Below are positions 2,287-10,057 of a stretch of 10,057 nt of DNA, piece after piece. A program made the position numbers and the translations under genes. The notes below the pieces were generated by a model. That model ran no database searches, had not been told where the DNA came from, and saw only the letters and a program-made list of their open reading frames with translations. Position 1 is the first letter of the stretch. Every line of letters starts with the position of its first letter. The stretch is from Lachnospiraceae bacterium. Lineage in GTDB: Bacteria; Bacillota; Clostridia; Lachnospirales; Lachnospiraceae. The DNA lies in the NCBI GenBank assembly GCA_017476305.1, contig JAFVAA010000098.1:1-10057 (forward strand), in the 5' to 3' direction.

Positions 2287-3018
2287 CTATTCCAGCCAAA
2301 AATCGAGCCAGGCTTTATATAGTGACTTTGTCGAGCTCCTGGGAATCGTCAGTCTGACATCGTTTGAAAAGGTAAGTTCATTCTTATCAATGACCTTTAT
2401 CTGTCCGAGATTGACGAGGATGCTGGTTCCGCACGGAAAAAACTGCGGCTCCATAGCAAGCTGTGCAGTAGCAGATTTAAAAGATCCCGGTATCGTTATA
2501 CTTTTAATCTTTCTGTCGAAGCACACATAGGAGAGGGCACGGGCTTCCAGCATGATGTAATAGATTTCGTCATAGGTAACCGGATAGGTTCCGGACTTCG
2601 TGCGGACGGGAAGGGTGCGTACCTTGTTTTTTTCTACCTGTCTGACGGCATTTGTCAGGATTTTATCAAATTTATCATATGCTACGGGCTTCAGGAGATA
2701 GAAAAAAGCCCGGACCTCGTAGCTTTCCACAGCGAACTCAGGAGAGGAGGTAAGGTAGATGATGGGGGTATCATGACCGGCTGTTTCTACTGTGCGAAGC
2801 TTAGAGCCGAGTTCGATCCCGTTCATTTCCGGCATGAGAATATCTAAAATATACAGATCATAGCGATTGTCGATGATGACCTGATTTATCAATGCTTCTG
2901 CCTTTTCGAACGGATATGCATGTATGGTACAGCCATGAGAAGAGGTCCACATATCTATCATATCCTGGATGTGCTTAAGTTCTTCTGTATCGTCGTCACA
3001 TATAGCAATTTTTATCAT
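2287..3018 (-). CDS. LytTR-family response regulator (AgrA/VirR type)
   Basis: 243 aa. Receiver domain at about 1-125: acidic pocket D8-D10, phospho-acceptor D59 in YILDILMPEMNG, switch T90 and conserved K110 before P111. A LytTR DNA-binding domain follows (about 140-243), with the typical TKSGTYPVTYDEIYYI entry and FFPCGTSILVNLGQI core; such domains bind pairs of direct repeats about two helical turns apart. The ATG at 3018 is preceded by GGAAGG at good distance and begins the canonical MIKIAICDDD. An open frame runs 63 codons further upstream but contains the TATAAT promoter, so it is rejected as coding. It is first in an operon with the kinase downstream (11 bp between genes). Candidate targets are the direct repeats at 3183-3214 and 6575-6606. 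Confidence 0.92.
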   Translation of the reverse strand: MIKIAICDDDTEELKHIQDMIDMWTSSHGCTIHAYPFEKAEALINQVIIDNRYDLYILDILMPEMNGIELGSKLRTVETAGHDTPIIYLTSSPEFAVESYEVRAFFYLLKPVAYDKFDKILTNAVRQVEKNKVRTLPVRTKSGTYPVTYDEIYYIMLEARALSYVCFDRKIKSITIPGSFKSATAQLAMEPQFFPCGTSILVNLGQIKVIDKNELTFSNDVRLTIPRSSTKSLYKAWLDFWLE

Positions 3019-3154: not shown

Positions 3155-3183
3155 ATTATATCATGCTTTTTCCATTTTGAAAG
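3155..3183 (-). promoter_or_regulatory. Promoter of the response regulator / kinase operon
   Basis: A consensus TATAAT at 3160-3155 on the minus strand is preceded by TGA, making an extended -10 (TGATATAAT). The -35 at the right distance is CTTTCA (3183-3178), a poor match. The start would be near 3148, giving a leader of about 130 bases. A weak -35 with a strong extended -10 is common at activator-dependent promoters, and the direct repeats begin at its upstream edge. Confidence 0.55.
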
Positions 3184-3214
3184 ACAAATTTCGCAGAAAA
3201 AGGACAAATTTCAC
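3183..3214 (+). promoter_or_regulatory. Direct-repeat operator, probable LytTR regulator site (copy 1)
   Basis: GACAAATTTCGC at 3183-3194 and GACAAATTTCAC at 3203-3214 agree at 11 of 12 positions and are exactly 20 bp apart, two turns of the helix. LytTR proteins bind such paired direct repeats, and a LytTR regulator is encoded next to it. The site lies between divergent promoters: 22 bp from the -10 of the regulator (3155-3160) and 30 bp from the -10 at 3245 on the + strand. The same module recurs at 6575-6606. Binding by this regulator is inference. Confidence 0.55.
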
Positions 3215-3241
3215 ATTTTTTCCCATATCACAGAGGAAAAA

Positions 3242-3250
3242 TGATATATT
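3242..3250 (+). promoter_or_regulatory. Extended -10 promoter of the metallophosphoesterase gene
   Basis: TGATATATT at 3242-3250 is an extended -10. The region where a -35 would be (CCCATA, 3222-3227) is poor, pointing to help from an activator at the repeats that end 30 bp before the hexamer. The start would be near 3257, about 58 bases before the ATG at 3315. Confidence 0.45.
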
Positions 3251-3314
3251 AAGAATGATGTGTCGAAATAAGGAATCCGTGAAGAAGTTGGATTTAGGAC
3301 AAGGAGGAGATTTG

Positions 3315-4496
3315 ATGAAAGCAGTAGTGATTAGTGACATTCATTTGGGTATAGATGATAAGATCGCGGAAAATGTGAAGAATCGTCCGCTTCTTATGGA
3401 TTTTATCGAGAGGCTCCGAAAGGAAAAAAAGACGGATGAAATCGTAATCAATGGGGATTTTTTAGATCAGTGGTTTTTACCGGGGACATATGAGCATGAA
3501 CCGGATTCCGATATCTTTTACCGGCAGATTGCAAAGAACAATCAGGATGTTATGGAGGCTTTTCAGGCTGTGATCCGGGACGGGATCCGTCTGGTGTATG
3601 TACCGGGAAACCATGATATGACACTTTCCCATCAAACGTTAGTCTCCATCCTTCCGGGGATTACGCAGGCGCGGGATGTGCGCGGACTGGGACGGTACCG
3701 GACCGGAGCGAGGGGAGAGATTGTTATAGAGCACGGACACCGCTATGAGTCGTTCTGTGCGCCGGACATGTTCTCCAATAAAGCGTTTATGGAATACGGG
3801 GAACCGATTCTGCCACCGGGATATTTCTTTGCCAGAATCGGTGTGCAGAGCATTGTAGAAGGGCATCCCGAGGTACATAAGCAAATAGCGGAGCTTCCGC
3901 TGCCGGACAGAGAGGATGCGTACCAGGTGATCCGGTATGCGTATTATAAGGTCTGGAAGGATGTGGTCGAAAAAATCTTTCCGGTGAAGGAGGACATAGG
4001 GGACAAATTTATCCGGGTGGGAATCGATGGCTTTCAAGGACAGTTTTCCATGAAGGACATCGTTCCGGGGGCGGGATCGGACGGAATTTCCCAGGAGCTC
4101 TATTCGGATTTCGGAAAGCACTGGGAGGAAGTGCAGAGGCGGAATCTGGTGCCGCATCCGGTAAGTCTCCCGGAGCAGCTCTCCAGGATGACAGATCAGA
4201 CGCTTCGCGCAGAGTATGCGAAAAAACAGTATTTTGATCTCGATCCGACCGTGGATGTCGTGGTATTCGGGCACACCCATGTGCCGTTTTACCAGGAGTT
4301 TGACGGTTTTGACCGGAAAAAAATCTATGTAAACGAGGGGACATGGGTGGATCATAATTCAGATGATCCGGAGAATACAGCGGTCTTTGCTGAGATTGTT
4401 TCCGATGAAAGAGAGACAAGGGTTTCGCTTTTAAAATGTGTCGGGGATGACAGGGCAGAGGATATTGTTCCTGTAAAAAATCAATATGTAAAATAA
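3315..4496 (+). CDS. Calcineurin-like metallophosphoesterase
   Basis: 393 aa, cytoplasmic, no signal peptide. All metal-binding motifs of the family are present in order: DxH at D8-H10 (SDIHLG), GDFLD at 47-51, GNHD at 98-101, HGHRYE at 140-145 and GHTH at 319-322. The last two histidine motifs are about 175 residues apart, so a large, mostly charged and aromatic insert sits within the fold. The start order resembles LpxH-type hydrolases, but a Gram-positive host without lipid A makes that substrate unlikely; substrate unknown. The ATG at 3315 has AGGAGG at 3302-3307 and starts directly at the first strand. An open frame continues upstream to 3141, but it crosses the control region and is rejected. 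It is transcribed away from the two-component operon, and its stop codon forms part of the first repeat hairpin at 4494. Confidence 0.88.
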   Translation: MKAVVISDIHLGIDDKIAENVKNRPLLMDFIERLRKEKKTDEIVINGDFLDQWFLPGTYEHEPDSDIFYRQIAKNNQDVMEAFQAVIRDGIRLVYVPGNHDMTLSHQTLVSILPGITQARDVRGLGRYRTGARGEIVIEHGHRYESFCAPDMFSNKAFMEYGEPILPPGYFFARIGVQSIVEGHPEVHKQIAELPLPDREDAYQVIRYAYYKVWKDVVEKIFPVKEDIGDKFIRVGIDGFQGQFSMKDIVPGAGSDGISQELYSDFGKHWEEVQRRNLVPHPVSLPEQLSRMTDQTLRAEYAKKQYFDLDPTVDVVVFGHTHVPFYQEFDGFDRKKIYVNEGTWVDHNSDDPENTAVFAEIVSDERETRVSLLKCVGDDRAEDIVPVKNQYVK

Positions 4497-4736
4497 AGCC
4501 GAAAGCGGTTTTATTCAGCAGCTTGGTTATGCAAAAAGGCATGAACATTTTTCGGATAAATTTTTCGGATAAAATGAACGCTAAAGCGTTCATCATGGAA
4601 GTTACTCCGTAACTTCATTATGCCAGAAAGCATGGCAATAAATAGGGTAAAATAAACGCTGAAGCGTTTATCATGCAAATTGCTCCGCAATTTGGTTATG
4701 TCCAACAAACCTTCGGTTTGTAAGAAGCGTGGACAT
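4494..4736 (+). repeat. Three structured ~80-bp repeat units with covarying stems
   Basis: This gap between genes is three units whose first hairpins start at 4494, 4575 and 4653. Hairpin A: 4494-4513 (8 bp, one G-T pair), TGAACGC-TAAA-GCGTTCA (4575-4592), TAAACGC-TGAA-GCGTTTA (4653-4670). Hairpin B: GAAGTTAC-TCC-GTAACTTC (4598-4616) and CAAATTGC-TCC-GCAATTTG (4676-4694); B is shrunken in unit 1. Hairpin C: ATGC/GCAT around a 6-base loop (4529-4542, 4620-4633), and in unit 3 ATGTCC/GGACAT (4698-4703, 4731-4736) enclosing ACAAACC-TTC-GGTTTGT (4705-4721). Between units 2 and 3, stem A differs at one pair and stem B at three, all compensated, while the TCC loop is kept. The first hairpin overlaps the metallophosphoesterase stop codon and may end its transcript. 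Confidence 0.75.
4548..4573 (+). repeat. 13-bp tandem duplication inside the repeat block
   Basis: TTTTTCGGATAAA occurs twice back to back (4548-4560, 4561-4573) at the junction of the first and second structured units. The same junction in the next unit reads AATAGGGTAAAATA once, so the doubling looks like a local slippage event. Confidence 0.7.
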
Positions 4737-4741
4737 TTTTA

Positions 4742-4750
4742 TGGTAAAAT
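4742..4750 (+). promoter_or_regulatory. Possible extended -10 promoter of cstA
   Basis: TGGTAAAAT at 4742-4750 is an extended -10 (TGn plus TAAAAT) 45 bases before the cstA start. No convincing -35 is seen at 17 bp; TGGACA at 4730-4735 is too close. A similar GGGTAAAAT occurs at the start of the third repeat unit (4645-4653), so the box may simply be repeat sequence. Confidence 0.3.
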
Positions 4751-4794
4751 ATAAGCATATTTATCAAAACAGAAGAAAGGTGAGGAAACACAGG

Positions 4795-6237
4795 ATGATT
4801 ACTTTTTTTATAGGACTGGTTATTTTGATACTTGGCGGTGCTTTGTACGGGAAGCTCTGCGAGAGGGTGATGAAGCCTACGGAGCGTGAGACACCGGCAG
4901 TTGCCATGCGGGATGATGTGGATTTTGTACCGATGTCAAAGTGGAAGAACAGTCTGATCGAGCTTTTAAATATTGCAGGAACCGGACCGATTTTAGGACC
5001 GATTCAGGGGATTCTTTTCGGACCAGTCGCTTTTATTACGATTCCTATCGGATGTGTGATTGGTGGTGCTGTCCATGATTATATGACGGGAATGATTTCG
5101 GTGCGGAACAAGGGAGAGCAGATGCCGGATCTGATCCGTCGTTTCCTTGGAAAGCATTTGTATGTGGTCTATAATATTTTCGTTTGTCTTTTGATGCTCT
5201 TAGTGGGTGTCGTTTTTATCTATACGCCGGGCGATCTGTTTGTGACACAGATTCTCGGAGGGAAAAGCGTGGTCTCAAATCCTGCTCTCTGGGTGGTCTA
5301 TGGTGTGATTTTTGCTTACTATGTGATTGCTACGCTGTTTCCGATTGATAAGATTATCGGAAAGGTGTACCCGGTTTTTGGAGCGATTCTTCTTCTCTCT
5401 GCAGTGGGCGTGTTTATCGGGCTTTTTACGAAAGGATATCCCCTTGTGGAGCTGTGGGATGCTTCTGCGGCAGGGTTTCCGCTTCAGAGCAGATTTATCC
5501 CCATCTTTTTTGTGACCGTGACCTGCGGTATCTGCTCCGGCTTCCATTCGACACAGGCAACACTCGTTTCGAGAACGGTTTCCAATGAGCATGAGGGAAG
5601 GACGACCTTTTACAATATGATGATTGCAGAGGGATTCATTGCGATGATCTGGGCGGCTGCAGGCATGGGCGCACTACAGATGGGGCTTGCGGATCGGGAT
5701 ACACTCTGGGGCTCGGCAACTCTGGTGGTTGGTACGGTGGCGAAGGATATGCTCGGGACAGTCGGAGGAATTATTGCTGTTATAGGTGTCATCGTGCTTC
5801 CTATCACATCAGGGGATACGGCACTCCGTTCCCTCAGGCTGATGGTGGGGGATGCACTTCGCATTGACCAGAGAAAGAAGAAAAATGCGCTGCTTTTGGC
5901 TCTCTGTATTTTTGCTATCGTGGGCGTGCTCCTTATCTGGGCAAAGGGAAATCCGGCAGGCTTTAACATTATCTGGCGGTACTTTTCCTGGGCAAATGAA
6001 ACGACAGCGGTTTTTGCCTTTGCGATGATTGCAGTCTATATGAAGAAAAATCAGATGCCGTACTTGATGGCAGTTGTCCCGGGCACCTTTTATATGTATA
6101 TCATATCCTGCTATATCCTGAATGCACAGATCGGTTTTAACATTCCGTGGACGATAAGCTATATCCTTGCGGGGGTTCTGGCTGCCCTGTATGCTCTGCT
6201 TCTTTTGATAAAGAAGCAGGCGAAAGCTTCGGCATAA
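4795..6237 (+). CDS. cstA: CstA-family carbon starvation / pyruvate-peptide transporter
   Basis: 480 aa integral membrane protein with about twelve hydrophobic segments. Family signatures: NIAGTGPILGPIQG from N59, DYMTGMISVRNKGEQMPDL from D95, and GFHSTQATLVSRT from about 249. Characterised relatives in Escherichia coli (CstA, BtsT) take up pyruvate and perhaps peptides during carbon limitation. This protein is the short form without the C-terminal extension of the 700-residue enterobacterial proteins. I start at the ATG at 4795 (MITFFIGLVILI), directly before the first membrane segment, with AGGTGAGG at 4778-4785. A longer frame to 4729 would add a basic 22-residue tail and covers the likely promoter. 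It is separated from the metallophosphoesterase by the repeat block and followed by a strong terminator, so it is probably transcribed alone or with that gene. Transport substrate is inferred. Confidence 0.9.
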   Translation: MITFFIGLVILILGGALYGKLCERVMKPTERETPAVAMRDDVDFVPMSKWKNSLIELLNIAGTGPILGPIQGILFGPVAFITIPIGCVIGGAVHDYMTGMISVRNKGEQMPDLIRRFLGKHLYVVYNIFVCLLMLLVGVVFIYTPGDLFVTQILGGKSVVSNPALWVVYGVIFAYYVIATLFPIDKIIGKVYPVFGAILLLSAVGVFIGLFTKGYPLVELWDASAAGFPLQSRFIPIFFVTVTCGICSGFHSTQATLVSRTVSNEHEGRTTFYNMMIAEGFIAMIWAAAGMGALQMGLADRDTLWGSATLVVGTVAKDMLGTVGGIIAVIGVIVLPITSGDTALRSLRLMVGDALRIDQRKKKNALLLALCIFAIVGVLLIWAKGNPAGFNIIWRYFSWANETTAVFAFAMIAVYMKKNQMPYLMAVVPGTFYMYIISCYILNAQIGFNIPWTISYILAGVLAALYALLLLIKKQAKASA

Positions 6238-6243
6238 GAAAAC

Positions 6244-6280
6244 ACAAGAGTTTCGCTTGCGAAACTCTTGTTTCTGTTTT
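6244..6280 (+). terminator. Rho-independent terminator after cstA
   Basis: ACAAGAGTTTCGC (6244-6256) pairs perfectly with GCGAAACTCTTGT (6259-6271) across a 2-base centre, a 13-bp stem followed by TTCTGTTTTT. It begins 6 bases after the cstA stop. On the minus strand the stem is followed by GTTTTCTT, so it may also stop transcripts coming from the other side. Confidence 0.9.
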
Positions 6281-6425
6281 TACTTCAAACGGTGTTATGA
6301 TACCATCCTTAACAATGATGTAGCCAGCCTCTGCAGTATTGTTTAATTTCCGTTCGATTAAATCTTTATTAATATTTCATACTAAAATACCACATAACAG
6401 CATCCCCCATCCCTTCATTTTTCAT
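6262..6425 (-). pseudogene. Possible frameshifted remnant of a small minus-strand gene
   Basis: On the minus strand an ATG at 6425 opens MKNEGMGDAVMWYFSMKY and stops at two consecutive TAA codons. One base out of frame, the reading continues with protein-like composition, INKDLIERKLNNTAEAGYI followed by IVKDGIITPFEVKTE, into the terminator. The second part has no start codon of its own. The easiest reading is a small gene of about 55-60 codons broken by an indel near 6372-6380. I do not recognise the family. No good ribosome site precedes 6425. A promoter (6427-6455) points into it. A non-coding transcript is the main alternative. Confidence 0.3.
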
Positions 6426-6426
6426 C

Positions 6427-6455
6427 ATTATAAGATAACAAACAAATAAAATCAA
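6427..6455 (-). promoter_or_regulatory. Minus-strand promoter facing the cstA terminator
   Basis: On the minus strand TTGATT (6455-6450), a 17-bp spacer and a perfect TATAAT (6432-6427) form a sigma-A type promoter. The start would be near 6420. A transcript would run about 170-180 bases to the inverted repeat at 6244-6271. The -35 lies inside the first of the three 33-bp-spaced motifs, which suggests those motifs control it. Confidence 0.45.
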
Positions 6456-6528
6456 GGGTTTTAAATTGGGTGAAATGAATAAAATCATGGGTTTTAAATT
6501 TACTTTAAACGATAAAATCCAAGGTTTT
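6446..6528. repeat. Three AAAATC-NNN-GGTTTT motifs at exact 33-bp intervals
   Basis: AAAATC-N3-GGTTTT occurs at 6448-6462, 6481-6495 and 6514-6528, each starting exactly 33 bp after the last and each preceded by AT. The first two copies are also followed by AAATT. The three middle bases differ (AAG, ATG, CAA), and each motif is an imperfect dyad with one G-T mismatch. 33 bp is about three helical turns, so all copies face the same side of the DNA, as in an operator array. The sequence between copies is not conserved. Confidence 0.6.
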
Positions 6529-6574
6529 CGATTGATAGTAAATTATATCGTCCGGGAAAAGTGGATCGGATTTT

Positions 6575-6606
6575 GACAAATTTTGCAAAAAATCGACCGA
6601 TTTTAC
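6575..6606 (+). promoter_or_regulatory. Direct-repeat operator, probable LytTR regulator site (copy 2)
   Basis: GACAAATTTTGC (6575-6586) and GACCGATTTTAC (6595-6606) are 20 bp apart. Aligned without gaps over 32 bp to the site at 3183-3214, they agree at 25 positions; the first half-site differs at one base of 12. The -10 of the downstream operon starts 30 bp after the second repeat, the same distance as in copy 1. An overlapping inverted repeat AAAATCG-AC-CGATTTT (6589-6604) could be a second operator or chance in AT-rich DNA. TTGACA at 6573-6578 overlaps the first repeat, but no -10 lies at a proper distance from it. Confidence 0.55.
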
Positions 6607-6633
6607 AGAAATTAAGACGAATGTGGGAGAATG

Positions 6634-6642
6634 TGATACGAT
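6634..6642 (+). promoter_or_regulatory. Extended -10 promoter of the DUF308 / Calx-beta operon
   Basis: TGATACGAT at 6634-6642 is a TGn-extended -10 (TACGAT, four of six). Taken alone it is weak; support comes from its position, 30 bp after the direct repeats, exactly as TGATATATT lies after copy 1. The start would be near 6649, about 40 bases before the ATG at 6689. Confidence 0.4.
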
Positions 6643-6688: not shown

Positions 6689-7222
6689 ATGAGAACGAGA
6701 AGTATAGTAGCGGTTATTATGGGCGTGCTGTTAATCATTTCAGGGTTTCTATGTATTTTTCATCCTGCGATGACACTTGGGACGATTCCCTGGCTGATCG
6801 GCCTGGATATGGTGTTTGATGGTGTCGGAGAACTGTGCACCTGGTCGGACCGGAAAGCGAGAGGGGGAGCCGGCGGTTTGGCTCTGGCAGGAGCGATACT
6901 CTCCCTGCTCTGCGGAATCGCATTATTTATCAGCTTTGCAGCAAGATTGTTAGCAGCAGAGTTCGTGATTTTTTTCGTTGCAGTTTGGATTTTGCTGTTA
7001 GGAATCATACGCATCGTGAAAGCATTTCAGTTAAAAAAAGCACCTGTAGAGGAGCTTGCGAACAAGTGGTGGATTGCACTGGTCATGGGGATTACATTGG
7101 TGATCTGCGGGATATTCAGTATCTGCAATCCGCTTGTTTTGGGACTGGTAATCGGTATCAATCTGGGGGTTATGGTTCTGATTGCAGGAATCAATCTGGT
7201 TACAGTGGCTACAGCAGGATAG
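6689..7222 (+). CDS. HdeD-like DUF308 membrane protein
   Basis: 177 aa with six hydrophobic segments and very short loops. The first (GVLLIISGFLCIFHP) and fifth (GITLVICGIFSICNP) are clear internal repeats of the G-x-x-x-I-x-x-G-x-x-x-x-x-x-P pattern typical of DUF308/HdeD, a family linked to acid resistance in Escherichia coli but of unknown molecular function. The ATG at 6689 has an excellent AAGGAGGT at 6677-6684. An in-frame GTG at 6623 would add 22 polar residues and overlap the promoter, so it is rejected. It is the first gene of an operon with the Calx-beta protein 49 bp downstream and no terminator between, which hints at a role in envelope or surface protein biology. Confidence 0.8.
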   Translation: MRTRSIVAVIMGVLLIISGFLCIFHPAMTLGTIPWLIGLDMVFDGVGELCTWSDRKARGGAGGLALAGAILSLLCGIALFISFAARLLAAEFVIFFVAVWILLLGIIRIVKAFQLKKAPVEELANKWWIALVMGITLVICGIFSICNPLVLGLVIGINLGVMVLIAGINLVTVATAG

Positions 7223-7271: not shown

Positions 7272-10057
7272 ATGAAATTCAGAAAGAAAAAATTTGCAAA
7301 CTTTGCAGACAGGGGGAAAAGGATACTCGCCCTGACACTGGTGACAGCACTTTCCGTGACAGGAAACGGAGTGGAAAGCTTTGCTGCCAAACCGGATTCC
7401 GTTTCAGACGGGGGAAAGGCATATGTTTATCTGGAAAAAGCGACTATGCCGGAGGAGATTCAGCAGAATGACGTGTTCTATGTGGCGATGACTTCTGCAG
7501 AATTCATGGAGAGCAGTGAAAAGTCCTATGTCCTTACCGTGGGCAGGGGTGGAGAGGCAAAAGAGGCTTCTCATGTCACGGTGAAGCTCTCCGATTGGAC
7601 TGCAAAGTACGGAGAGGATTATACGGTGCGCCGGATGGAGGATGCGGAAGAACTTCCGGAAAATCCTGACAGCGTGAACCTGTTCGAACTCATGGACCAG
7701 GGTGAGTATGAGGGAGAAATCCCGTACTCCGAGGAAGACATGAAAACTGCAGTCAATCAGATCGTAGAAGAAACTTCGGGTTCTTTCAAAGCTTCTCAGG
7801 AGGAGAAAAAGAGTACCTCTGACAATCCTCTGCAGCAGGCAAAGGAGGAGCTTACGGGAATTTCTTCTGACCGTGAGGCTATGACGGGCAGTGGAAACGA
7901 TATGATCGAAATGATGTCGCAGGTCAGCAATCTTCTGACGGAGACCGTGGCGGGAACGACACTGAAACTGGATTTTTCACCGGGAGAAAAGGAGAAAGAG
8001 ATTGTCATCACTCCAAAGGATAACCGGAAATCCGATGGTGACCGTTTCTTCTATCTGGTGCTTTCGGAGCCGTCCGAGGGTATGAAGAACAGCAGCATTT
8101 CCGAATCAATCTTTACAATAAAGGATGATGAGCCAGAGGTAAAAGCGAGCATTTCTTTTGATGTGGAAAGTTTTCGGGCAGAAAATGGCGAGGTACAGGT
8201 GCGCCTGATCAGGGAAGGGGCACTGACACAGACCGTGGCTGTCCATATGACATCAAAGGATGGATCGGCAAAGGCAGGAGAGAACTATGAGGGCGTGGAT
8301 TCCGAGGTCGTCTTTCCTTTTGGTGTAAAGGAGAGAAATCTTACGTTTACCGCGAAAAGCGACGGGCTAAAAACGGATGCAGACTATACGCTTTCCATTA
8401 AAGAGAGTAGCGGGGCAGTTACGGGAGAAGTGGCAGAAGCGAAAGTCGTGATTCCAAAGGAGACGAAAGTAAAACGGGTCAAAGCATCCGACCGTGGAAA
8501 GAAGATCAGTGATGTTAGGCTTGGGAACCCGATTACGGAATTTGAGAAAGTGCTATCCGATACAGGACAGAAAGGAGCTACATGGGAAAGCTACAGTGAA
8601 AGTTCCGGGAAACACTCTTTTGATGTGACATCAGAGAAACAGATCTACCTGTATGGATATGATAATGCTGCGGGTTCCGGTGGAAACGGAGTCGTACAGG
8701 CGAACTCCAGACTGATCGATGATGTACAGATGAAAGACAGTGACCGGAAGGACAGTCTGGTATCGACCTATGATGGTGTCCGTATTAATTGGAAGGTGAA
8801 ACGGAGTGGTATTATCCCGAGTATTATATGGAGCGTCTATGCATCCGATACCACAGGGACTACGGATGTCGGGAAACAGCTTTATGAAAGTAAGAAAACG
8901 GGATGGGACGAGGACTGGCGCGAGGATGACTTTATCTTTGGGATGGAGGATGTCTTTAGCTGGGGCTTTAGAAACCGTACAGAAGATTACACCGAAGAAG
9001 TCTGGATCAAAAAGGTGACTCCGATTTTAAGACCTTTTAAGGTCAGACTGACCGAACCGGAGCCGGTGGAATTATATACCGGTGAGGTGGATGCGAACGG
9101 AGTGCCCAGAACGTCGAAAAATCAGGAAGCAGTAGCCACCACACTGGCAGGTTCTTCAGATGGGAATCCAGTCATGAAATATGACGGTGATACGATCGTA
9201 ATTCAAAATTCGCTTCCGGTCAATTTACAGACGGTAAAGATGGTCGGCGCGAAAATCGTCAAGACGAACAGCGAGAACCGTACTGCTGAAAAAAGCACGC
9301 TGATCAATCCGGAATACATACAGATTAATCAGAATACGGGAATCATAGAGCTTAATAATGCGTTTGTGCGTGAGTACCGGGATTATATCTCCTTTGCCGA
9401 TATGGAGGGCAGCGTGGGTGACAAGCAGCCTTCCACGATTCATAGAAAATATGGCTATTTTAATATACAGCCGGTCTATGGGAAAACGATGACACAGGGA
9501 GTCACGGTAAATGAAAATACAGCAGTAAGGGATTCAAGTGGGAAGACTGTGCCGGTCAAGATATTTTTAAATGGCAAAGAGGTAACATATGGAGAAAAAA
9601 TGACGGGTTACGGCATCGGTGACAAGCTTACCTTTACGGCCCAGTGTTCGGATGAGACCTATCGTGTCACAGGAATGGATGTGGATTACTATAGTGAAGG
9701 CAATAAAAGAGGGGAAAGCGGAACCATGAATGCCGATCCGGTGGATCATGATGTGAAGCTGACCATTACGACGGATTATGGATACGTCTTTACCCCGACA
9801 ATCCAATCCAATGACAATAAGATGGTCATACGTGTCAGGGAGGAGGATCTATCCAGGTTTGAGGCGACCGGATTCTTTACAGAAGAAAACCTGGCGGCTC
9901 ATTCTGCCAAAAATGAAACGTATGGATACCGGGAGATCGTGGTGGCAGATGCAGATGCGCTTCAGTCGGTAAAGGAAATTTACCTGGCTGTGGAGCCAAA
10001 GTCTGGAACTGTTCCAGTCTGGAAACTGACAAATGTCAATCGTTGGGTCATGGGAAA
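7272..10057 (+). CDS. Large exported Calx-beta domain protein (3' end outside window)
   Basis: At least 928 residues without a stop; the end is cut by the window. Signal peptide: basic MKFRKKKF start, hydrophobic core at about 18-34, likely cleavage after SFA at 36-38. A Calx-beta-like fold starts near 50 (VTVKLSDW at 102, YGEDYT at 113-118), is interrupted at about 122-227 by an acidic, helix-prone stretch rich in E, S, Q and M, and resumes at TLKLDF (about 230) to end with FTIKDDE (to 287). A second, uninterrupted Calx-beta domain spans about 291-397 (GSAKAGENYEGV near 332-342). The remainder is beta-rich and glycine/aspartate-rich, with only one cysteine seen, and I recognise no domain. 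Calx-beta domains bind calcium and are frequent in adhesins. No anchor motif can be seen because the C-terminus is missing. The ATG at 7272 follows AAAGGAGG at 7258-7265; an in-frame ATG at 7245 lacks a well-placed site. Confidence 0.85.
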   Translation, partial: MKFRKKKFANFADRGKRILALTLVTALSVTGNGVESFAAKPDSVSDGGKAYVYLEKATMPEEIQQNDVFYVAMTSAEFMESSEKSYVLTVGRGGEAKEASHVTVKLSDWTAKYGEDYTVRRMEDAEELPENPDSVNLFELMDQGEYEGEIPYSEEDMKTAVNQIVEETSGSFKASQEEKKSTSDNPLQQAKEELTGISSDREAMTGSGNDMIEMMSQVSNLLTETVAGTTLKLDFSPGEKEKEIVITPKDNRKSDGDRFFYLVLSEPSEGMKNSSISESIFTIKDDEPEVKASISFDVESFRAENGEVQVRLIREGALTQTVAVHMTSKDGSAKAGENYEGVDSEVVFPFGVKERNLTFTAKSDGLKTDADYTLSIKESSGAVTGEVAEAKVVIPKETKVKRVKASDRGKKISDVRLGNPITEFEKVLSDTGQKGATWESYSESSGKHSFDVTSEKQIYLYGYDNAAGSGGNGVVQANSRLIDDVQMKDSDRKDSLVSTYDGVRINWKVKRSGIIPSIIWSVYASDTTGTTDVGKQLYESKKTGWDEDWREDDFIFGMEDVFSWGFRNRTEDYTEEVWIKKVTPILRPFKVRLTEPEPVELYTGEVDANGVPRTSKNQEAVATTLAGSSDGNPVMKYDGDTIVIQNSLPVNLQTVKMVGAKIVKTNSENRTAEKSTLINPEYIQINQNTGIIELNNAFVREYRDYISFADMEGSVGDKQPSTIHRKYGYFNIQPVYGKTMTQGVTVNENTAVRDSSGKTVPVKIFLNGKEVTYGEKMTGYGIGDKLTFTAQCSDETYRVTGMDVDYYSEGNKRGESGTMNADPVDHDVKLTITTDYGYVFTPTIQSNDNKMVIRVREEDLSRFEATGFFTEENLAAHSAKNETYGYREIVVADADALQSVKEIYLAVEPKSGTVPVWKLTNVNRWVMG

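Follow-up and report, generated by a model that had tools for sequence, protein, structure and literature searches.

A direct-repeat promoter module in a Lachnospiraceae genome, predicted to be the operator of a LytTR response regulator clade with glycine in its DNA-contact motif

The stretch of DNA analysed here (10,057 nucleotides of contig JAFVAA010000098.1, assembly GCA_017476305.1, from a Lachnospiraceae bacterium; the window) carries two copies of a direct-repeat promoter module, one of them next to the gene of a LytTR response regulator that is its predicted binder. Both modules are on the plus strand. Module 1 consists of the half-sites GACAAATTTCGC (3183-3194) and GACAAATTTCAC (3203-3214) and an extended -10 element, TGA followed by TATATT (3242-3250), and module 2 of the half-sites GACAAATTTTGC (6575-6586) and GACCGATTTTAC (6595-6606) and an extended -10 element with TGA and TACGAT (6634-6642). 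Direct reading bears out what a preliminary description of the sequence had reported: the half-sites are spaced 20 bp start to start, 30 nucleotides (nt) lie between the second half-site and the -10 hexamer, TGA precedes the -10 in both copies, the two first half-sites are alike but for one base, and each of the second half-sites closes with AC. Read by eye, a 17-bp spacer would give module 1 a poor -35, CCCATA (3222-3227), and the -35 position of module 2 is occupied by AAGACG (6614-6619). The search pattern of the preliminary description has exactly two matches in the window, even when three mismatches are allowed, whereas a mean of 0.01 is expected by chance and none of 200 shuffles contained two matches. 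The recurrence of the module in the window is not a chance event. The first half-site of module 1 also scored above all 400 shuffles in the divergent scan described below, and the offset of its -10 element returns in other genomes.

Module 1 lies by the regulator gene and faces a gene for a calcineurin-like metallophosphoesterase (3315-4496, plus strand; Pfam PF00149, 2.8e-14), from its position the predicted target. Module 2 faces a gene for a DUF308 (HdeD-like) membrane protein (6689-7222, plus strand; PF03729, 8.9e-18), its predicted target on sequence grounds, and 49 bp behind this gene starts that of a large Calx-beta protein (7272-10055, plus strand; PF03160, 4.4e-19), which continues past the window end. 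A DUF308 start at 6689 is more likely than one at 6623 because it is preceded by AAGGAGGT, and the Calx-beta and DUF308 genes are likely to share one transcript. The Pfam scan agrees in this with the gene context first given, which had omitted a gene for a CstA-family transporter between the two modules (4795-6237, plus strand; PF02554, 1.3e-39; the open reading frame is listed from 4729 and its ATG was read at 4795). No module was found directly before the cstA gene of the window, the best score at 4440-4800 being 22.5 and not above background; it is possible that cstA is transcribed from module 1 by read-through of the metallophosphoesterase gene. Between these two genes an array of short hairpins with two similar units extends from 4497 to 4794. 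A further repeat, a 33-bp unit present three times in tandem (6440-6538; the later units 79% and 67% identical to the first), ends 36 bp before module 2 and possibly contains sites of a second regulator.

The regulator gene (2287-3018, minus strand) encodes a receiver domain (Response_reg, PF00072, 4.1e-14) and a LytTR domain (PF04397, 5.5e-9; 36.6 bits against a cut-off of 22.6), the composition of LytTR response regulators. Its membership in this family rests on the domain profile because the canonical DNA-contact motif FxRxHRS is absent; the window regulator reads FFPCGTS at this place. Eleven bp behind it on the same strand sits a gene for a GHKL sensor kinase with an AgrC-like domain (989-2275; HATPase_c_5, PF14501, 6.8e-13), and because of this arrangement the kinase is likely the cognate partner of the regulator rather than an unpaired protein. 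The earlier label of an orphan AgrC-like kinase holds in so far as a Pfam scan of the seven window proteins, which took in neither short peptides nor other parts of the genome, showed no AgrB or AgrD, but does not fit a kinase gene that adjoins a regulator gene.

Glycine in place of the FxRxHRS histidine is not peculiar to the window. It occurs in all 119 alignable sequences among the best 120 of 1741 homologues, and in a 32-sequence alignment the receiver residues Asp59 and Lys110 are invariant. An 80-row tree unites all but one of its 32 Gly rows in a single branch of 31 (support 100/99), whose signature reads FxxxGxS, and the remaining row, L031, stands elsewhere; both the motif and the tree place the window regulator in this Gly-type clade. 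A profile search of 397 genomes of the family detected Gly in nine genomes beyond the own one (L134-L142), among the loci of the best matches, and searches around two of these nine added one more, with a motif that the script did not classify. A sister set of five rows in which Ser replaces the His (IS[SA]S or VSSS; L143, L144, L145, L148 and L150) is also a single branch. On the divergent side of one of its members, L144, a perfect 21-bp repeat TCAATTTAGTGT is followed by TGG TAAGAT at 29 nt.

Repeat pairs were sought in the 400 bp upstream of 15 Gly-type regulators, with 400 dinucleotide shuffles of each. A pair pointing away from the regulator gene was found in 8 of the 15 loci at p<=0.01, and a pair pointing toward it in none at this threshold (lowest p 0.02). 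Six of the eight adjacent sites have a -10 element exactly 30 nt on. A rescan in which half-site position 5 was left free, with mononucleotide shuffles and p<=0.005, treated Gly-type and His-type loci alike; it gave 7/15 divergent and 0/15 toward for the Gly type, and 2/39 divergent and 1/39 toward for the His type. When C and TT were required at fixed places the window was the only Gly-type locus found, since the first T is an A in many half-sites. The consensus half-site across modules is ACMAATTYYRCA, with the two copies 20 or 21 bp apart.

This arrangement can be compared with known systems. In published LytTR promoters the repeats are mostly 21 bp apart start to start and lie about 10 bp upstream of the -35 (PMC6193735). 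VirR repeats are separated by 7-8 nt and stand immediately upstream of the -35 (PMC2838878), and a half-site similar to that of the window, CCCAGTTATTCACG, is contained in a pfoA primer of the VirS/VirR system of Clostridium perfringens (PMC2706048). RgaR of Clostridioides difficile acts on VirR-like direct repeats with critical bases at -51 and -72, 21 bp apart; the critical base is G, direct targets are few, and RgaS is called an orphan kinase (PMC10602386). The modules resemble these sites in that a promoter is closely preceded by two direct repeats with a spacing of 20-22 bp, and the RgaS/RgaR system also in its small set of direct targets. They differ from VirR boxes in carrying A for the G of the CAGTT core and in the 20-bp spacing of the window, from VirS/VirR in the target genes and in a regulator without FxRxHRS, and from RgaS/RgaR in the critical base and in the adjacency of the kinase and regulator genes. 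The likeness of the window half-site was judged against what we take to be the VirR-box consensus, with which it agrees at 6 of 11 positions.

The base in the core was examined in two sets of sites. The 34 half-sites of 17 collected sites have A 31 times, T twice and G once, a count that is in part circular, as the pattern used to find some of the sites contained the A; in the 14 half-sites of seven adjacent sites found with the core place left free, A occurs 12 times and G and T once each. The core G that is critical in RgaR sites is not the usual base here.

Other LytTR systems are more distant. The pairing of a GHKL kinase with a LytTR response regulator recalls AgrC/AgrA of Staphylococcus aureus, where direct repeats in pairs stand upstream of promoters whose -35/-10 spacing is poor; in the AgrA motif FFRCHNS, against FFPCGTS in the window regulator, R198, N201 and S202 contact DNA, and H200, like H188 of VirR, matters for activity (PMC4227749). 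In the LytTR Regulatory Systems HdrRM and BrsRM, 9-bp repeats mostly 12 bp apart show a strong bias to a position 10 bp upstream of the -35, hdrRM has a putative extended -10, and the spacing is preserved across varying half-site sequences (PMC6193735). These systems consist of a regulator and a membrane inhibitor and are autoregulatory, whereas the window regulator has a receiver domain and is accompanied by a kinase gene, and the modules adjacent to Gly-type regulators point away from the regulator gene; in these respects the window system is not of the LytTR Regulatory System kind. The control of a CstA-family transporter by a LytTR regulator would resemble BtsS/BtsR, since BtsT is a member of the same family as CstA (PMC7730263) and BtsR activates btsT in Escherichia coli (PMC10653868). 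BtsR is also the best NCBIfam match of the window regulator, but with 55.7 bits against a cut-off of 246 it falls short of the equivalog level, and BtsS is a seven-transmembrane pyruvate receptor, whereas the window kinase matches the GHKL domain only.

A description of the Gly-type clade or of this operator was not found in the part of the literature covered. By its domains the window regulator belongs to the LytTR response regulators, and it is predicted to act as they do. The undescribed specificity suggested in the preliminary description is plausible to the extent that the clade lacks the FxRxHRS histidine and its half-sites have A where those of VirR and RgaR have G; it needs qualification in that the half-site is still VirR-like and hence a variant.

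The search for further copies covered an own-genome assembly of 4.01 Mb in 957 contigs, 79% complete. At zero mismatches the pattern occurs in this genome only in the two window modules. With a pattern one base longer and up to three mismatches one extra site appeared, C926:1121-1153, with one mismatch, against one match of the reversed control. It has the same 20-bp spacing and TGATATATT 30 nt on, and stands before a gene for a 785-residue protein with two DUF3089 stretches. This site and module 1 are 83% identical over about 90 bp (L006 1118-1207 against window 3180-3270) while the flanks drop to background identity, which gives the two the look of a copied promoter. Module 2 does not belong to this copy.

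Genome-wide searches with the 21-bp repeat pair alone, allowing up to two mismatches, covered 15 genomes with a Gly-type regulator and, as controls, 15 genomes of the same genera without it; G298, with the Gly-type motif FVTCGNR, was left out. In 13 of the 15 control genomes the best match has a His or Asn motif, and G003 and G012 were classed as lacking the Gly type from a weak best match alone. Because the ratio of matches to control-pattern matches was the same in both genome sets, raw counts were not used as evidence and the test was made on where the -10 element lies, an extended -10 being defined as TGN and a TA-hexamer with at least 4/6 matches, at offsets from 4 to 70. In the Gly-type genomes 7 of 64 sites have such an element at 30 nt and nine have it at 29-31 nt, with eight at all other offsets. 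In the genomes without the Gly type it was found at 30 nt in 0 of 118 sites, at 29 nt in two and elsewhere in 23. The difference is significant (Fisher p = 0.0005; 0.004 after dropping two sites that had helped to set the offset). Both 29-nt control sites are on one contig of G011 that carries a LytTR gene of another type. At this locus (L360, G011:C169), two ACAGATTATGCA-type pairs with 21-bp spacing are followed at 29 nt by TGC TATAAT and TGC TATACT, and the LytTR motif reads FIRINKG.

Second sites that carry the genome's own half-site variant were seen in G010 (C317) and G507 (C41). The genes behind the sites in the Gly-type genomes are diverse: a chemotaxis protein in G507, a leucine-rich-repeat surface protein beside the regulator of that genome, a GHKL kinase in G006, a CBM2 protein behind the 29-nt site of G010, and in G480 a LytTR regulator with FVKLGVS that is itself Gly-type. 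At G010:C317 a distance of 375 nt separates the site from the first good open reading frame with a motif.

G310, the closest relative among the genomes searched, shares the regulator-kinase gene pair, with 63% identity between the regulators and 66% (410 residues) between the kinases, and its regulator-adjacent site has the 20-bp spacing of the window. A 20-bp search in the 15 genomes gave 45 matches against 15 control matches; among the 30 of these 45 for which flanks were read, five have a -10 element at 30 nt, of which the own genome contributes three and G310 two, and four have it at other offsets. One G310 site lies 109 nt before a CstA gene (L390) whose product is 79% identical to the window CstA, and a second lies before a STAS gene. 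Since the window and G310, the closest regulator pair, both have 20 bp, the repeat spacing follows the branch of the regulator, and one predicted target gene family is common to the two genomes. The placement of cstA differs: in G310 it is directly behind the module, and in the window it follows the metallophosphoesterase gene, with the module before the latter. Behind the regulator-adjacent module of G310 (L204 from 2007) no open reading frame on the same strand with a good ribosome site was found within 900 nt. A hairpin-like stretch stands about 130 nt behind its -10 element, and a small RNA is possible at this place.

Sequence comparison shows the two modules with a third copy, a regulator clade, and an architecture that is conserved and linked to genomes with a Gly-type regulator. 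These findings give comparative support to the regulon proposed in the preliminary description, in that the same architecture occurs beside regulators of the same clade and elsewhere in their genomes. We infer that the modules are quite probably activator-dependent promoters served by the adjacent kinase-regulator pair, because the geometry fits LytTR activation, with repeats about two turns apart and a weak or missing -35. In such a mechanism the GHKL kinase would receive a signal and phosphorylate the response regulator, two copies of which would together occupy the direct half-sites on one helix face, just upstream of the -35 position. The bound regulator would then recruit RNA polymerase to a promoter with an extended -10 (TGN TAnnnT, 30 nt on) and no good -35, a deficiency for which the TGN would compensate. 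The genes switched on would be the metallophosphoesterase gene, perhaps with cstA, the DUF308 and Calx-beta genes and the gene for the DUF3089 protein on C926. The envelope genes named as targets at the outset describe some of these, but not all.

Several observations weigh against this assignment. Most of the FxRxHRS contact residues are absent, so that binding could be weak or fail altogether, and another LytTR protein could be the binder, because 41 matches to the window regulator occur in the own genome at E<=0.001. Seven of the 15 Gly-type loci have no module beside the regulator, and two of the eight adjacent sites (L039 and L139) have no -10 element at 30 nt. The scan weights were set after the window, L035, L037, L038, L039 and, by eye, L010 had been viewed, five of the eight positive loci being known by then, and of the ten loci in which no site had been seen before, only three were positive (L135, L139 and L141). 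The raw pair counts are unremarkable, with 64 pairs to 25 control-pattern matches in the Gly-type genomes and 119 to 48 where the Gly type is lacking. The seven 30-nt sites come from 5 of the 15 genomes, and one of them, G010:C53, in which no more than 8 of the 12 half-site bases are identical, may be due to chance. As to conservation in relatives, by the refuting condition of the preliminary description, the exact motif has at up to one mismatch no site in 60 relatives, which lack close regulator homologues, but the module is present in G310, with its 63% identical homologue. A looser pattern matched six times in 294 other genomes, against three control matches. The family-wide search with the exact motif is uninformative; few close regulator homologues are present among the genomes searched.

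Among the other explanations, the one that survives best is that the modules are genuine LytTR operators bound not by the neighbour but by another LytTR regulator of the genome. The 41 matches provide candidates, and similar modules occur near regulators of other types, such as the His-type locus L034 with GCCAGTTATGCA and a -10 at 30 nt, the two 29-nt sites in the FIRINKG-type G011 and the TCAATTTAGTGT repeat of the Ser-type L144. However, modules adjoin the Gly-type gene in 8 of 15 loci, a -10 at 30 nt is absent from all 118 sites in same-genus genomes rich in other LytTR genes, and the closest regulator pair has its 20-bp spacing in common, so that we regard a different LytTR binder as unlikely. 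Much less probable is an unrelated factor or RNA element, with the LytTR adjacency misleading. The half-sites are AT-rich and their fit to the VirR consensus is partial, which would be in its favour, but paired direct repeats two turns apart upstream of a -35 are the published LytTR layout and the repeats are associated with LytTR genes. An RNA element was also rejected on an Rfam search of the window, in which no family reached gathering scores. Recent copying of one promoter stretch, with no regulatory meaning, would account for the 90 bp that module 1 and the C926 site share between unrelated flanks, but hardly for module 2 and the G310 sites, which agree in half-sites, spacing and -10 and differ in the sequence between these elements, or for an offset that is fixed across genera, and is the least credible of the three.

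Returning to the neighbouring Gly-type regulator as the predicted binder, we hypothesize that Gly in the contact motif goes with A in the half-site core and His with G, because VirR and RgaR in the literature and the His-type locus L034, with GTCAG and GCCAG, have the latter combination. A wider proposal, to which we give somewhat less than an even chance, is that a widespread LytTR clade with FxxxGxS reads a VirR-like operator with A for the critical G, in which case a beta-type DNA-binding domain would have changed its specificity in nature. The -10 would have stayed fixed at 30 nt while the spacing drifted once between 21 and 20 bp, and the regulons would be small and fast-changing, including the CstA transporter, STAS and chemotaxis proteins, secreted surface proteins, a kinase and another Gly-type LytTR gene.

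These genomes contain many LytTR regulators, and operators are known for only a minority of them. The signature described here, a half-site pair with 20-21 bp spacing and an extended -10 at 30 nt, beside a Gly-type regulator, would allow regulons to be predicted, in testable form, without experiments. If Gly for His truly goes with A for G, it would provide a LytTR recognition rule that can be tested through the exchange of a single residue and a single base. The occurrence of cstA in connection with the modules of two genomes suggests a parallel to the nutrient sensing of BtsR-BtsT.

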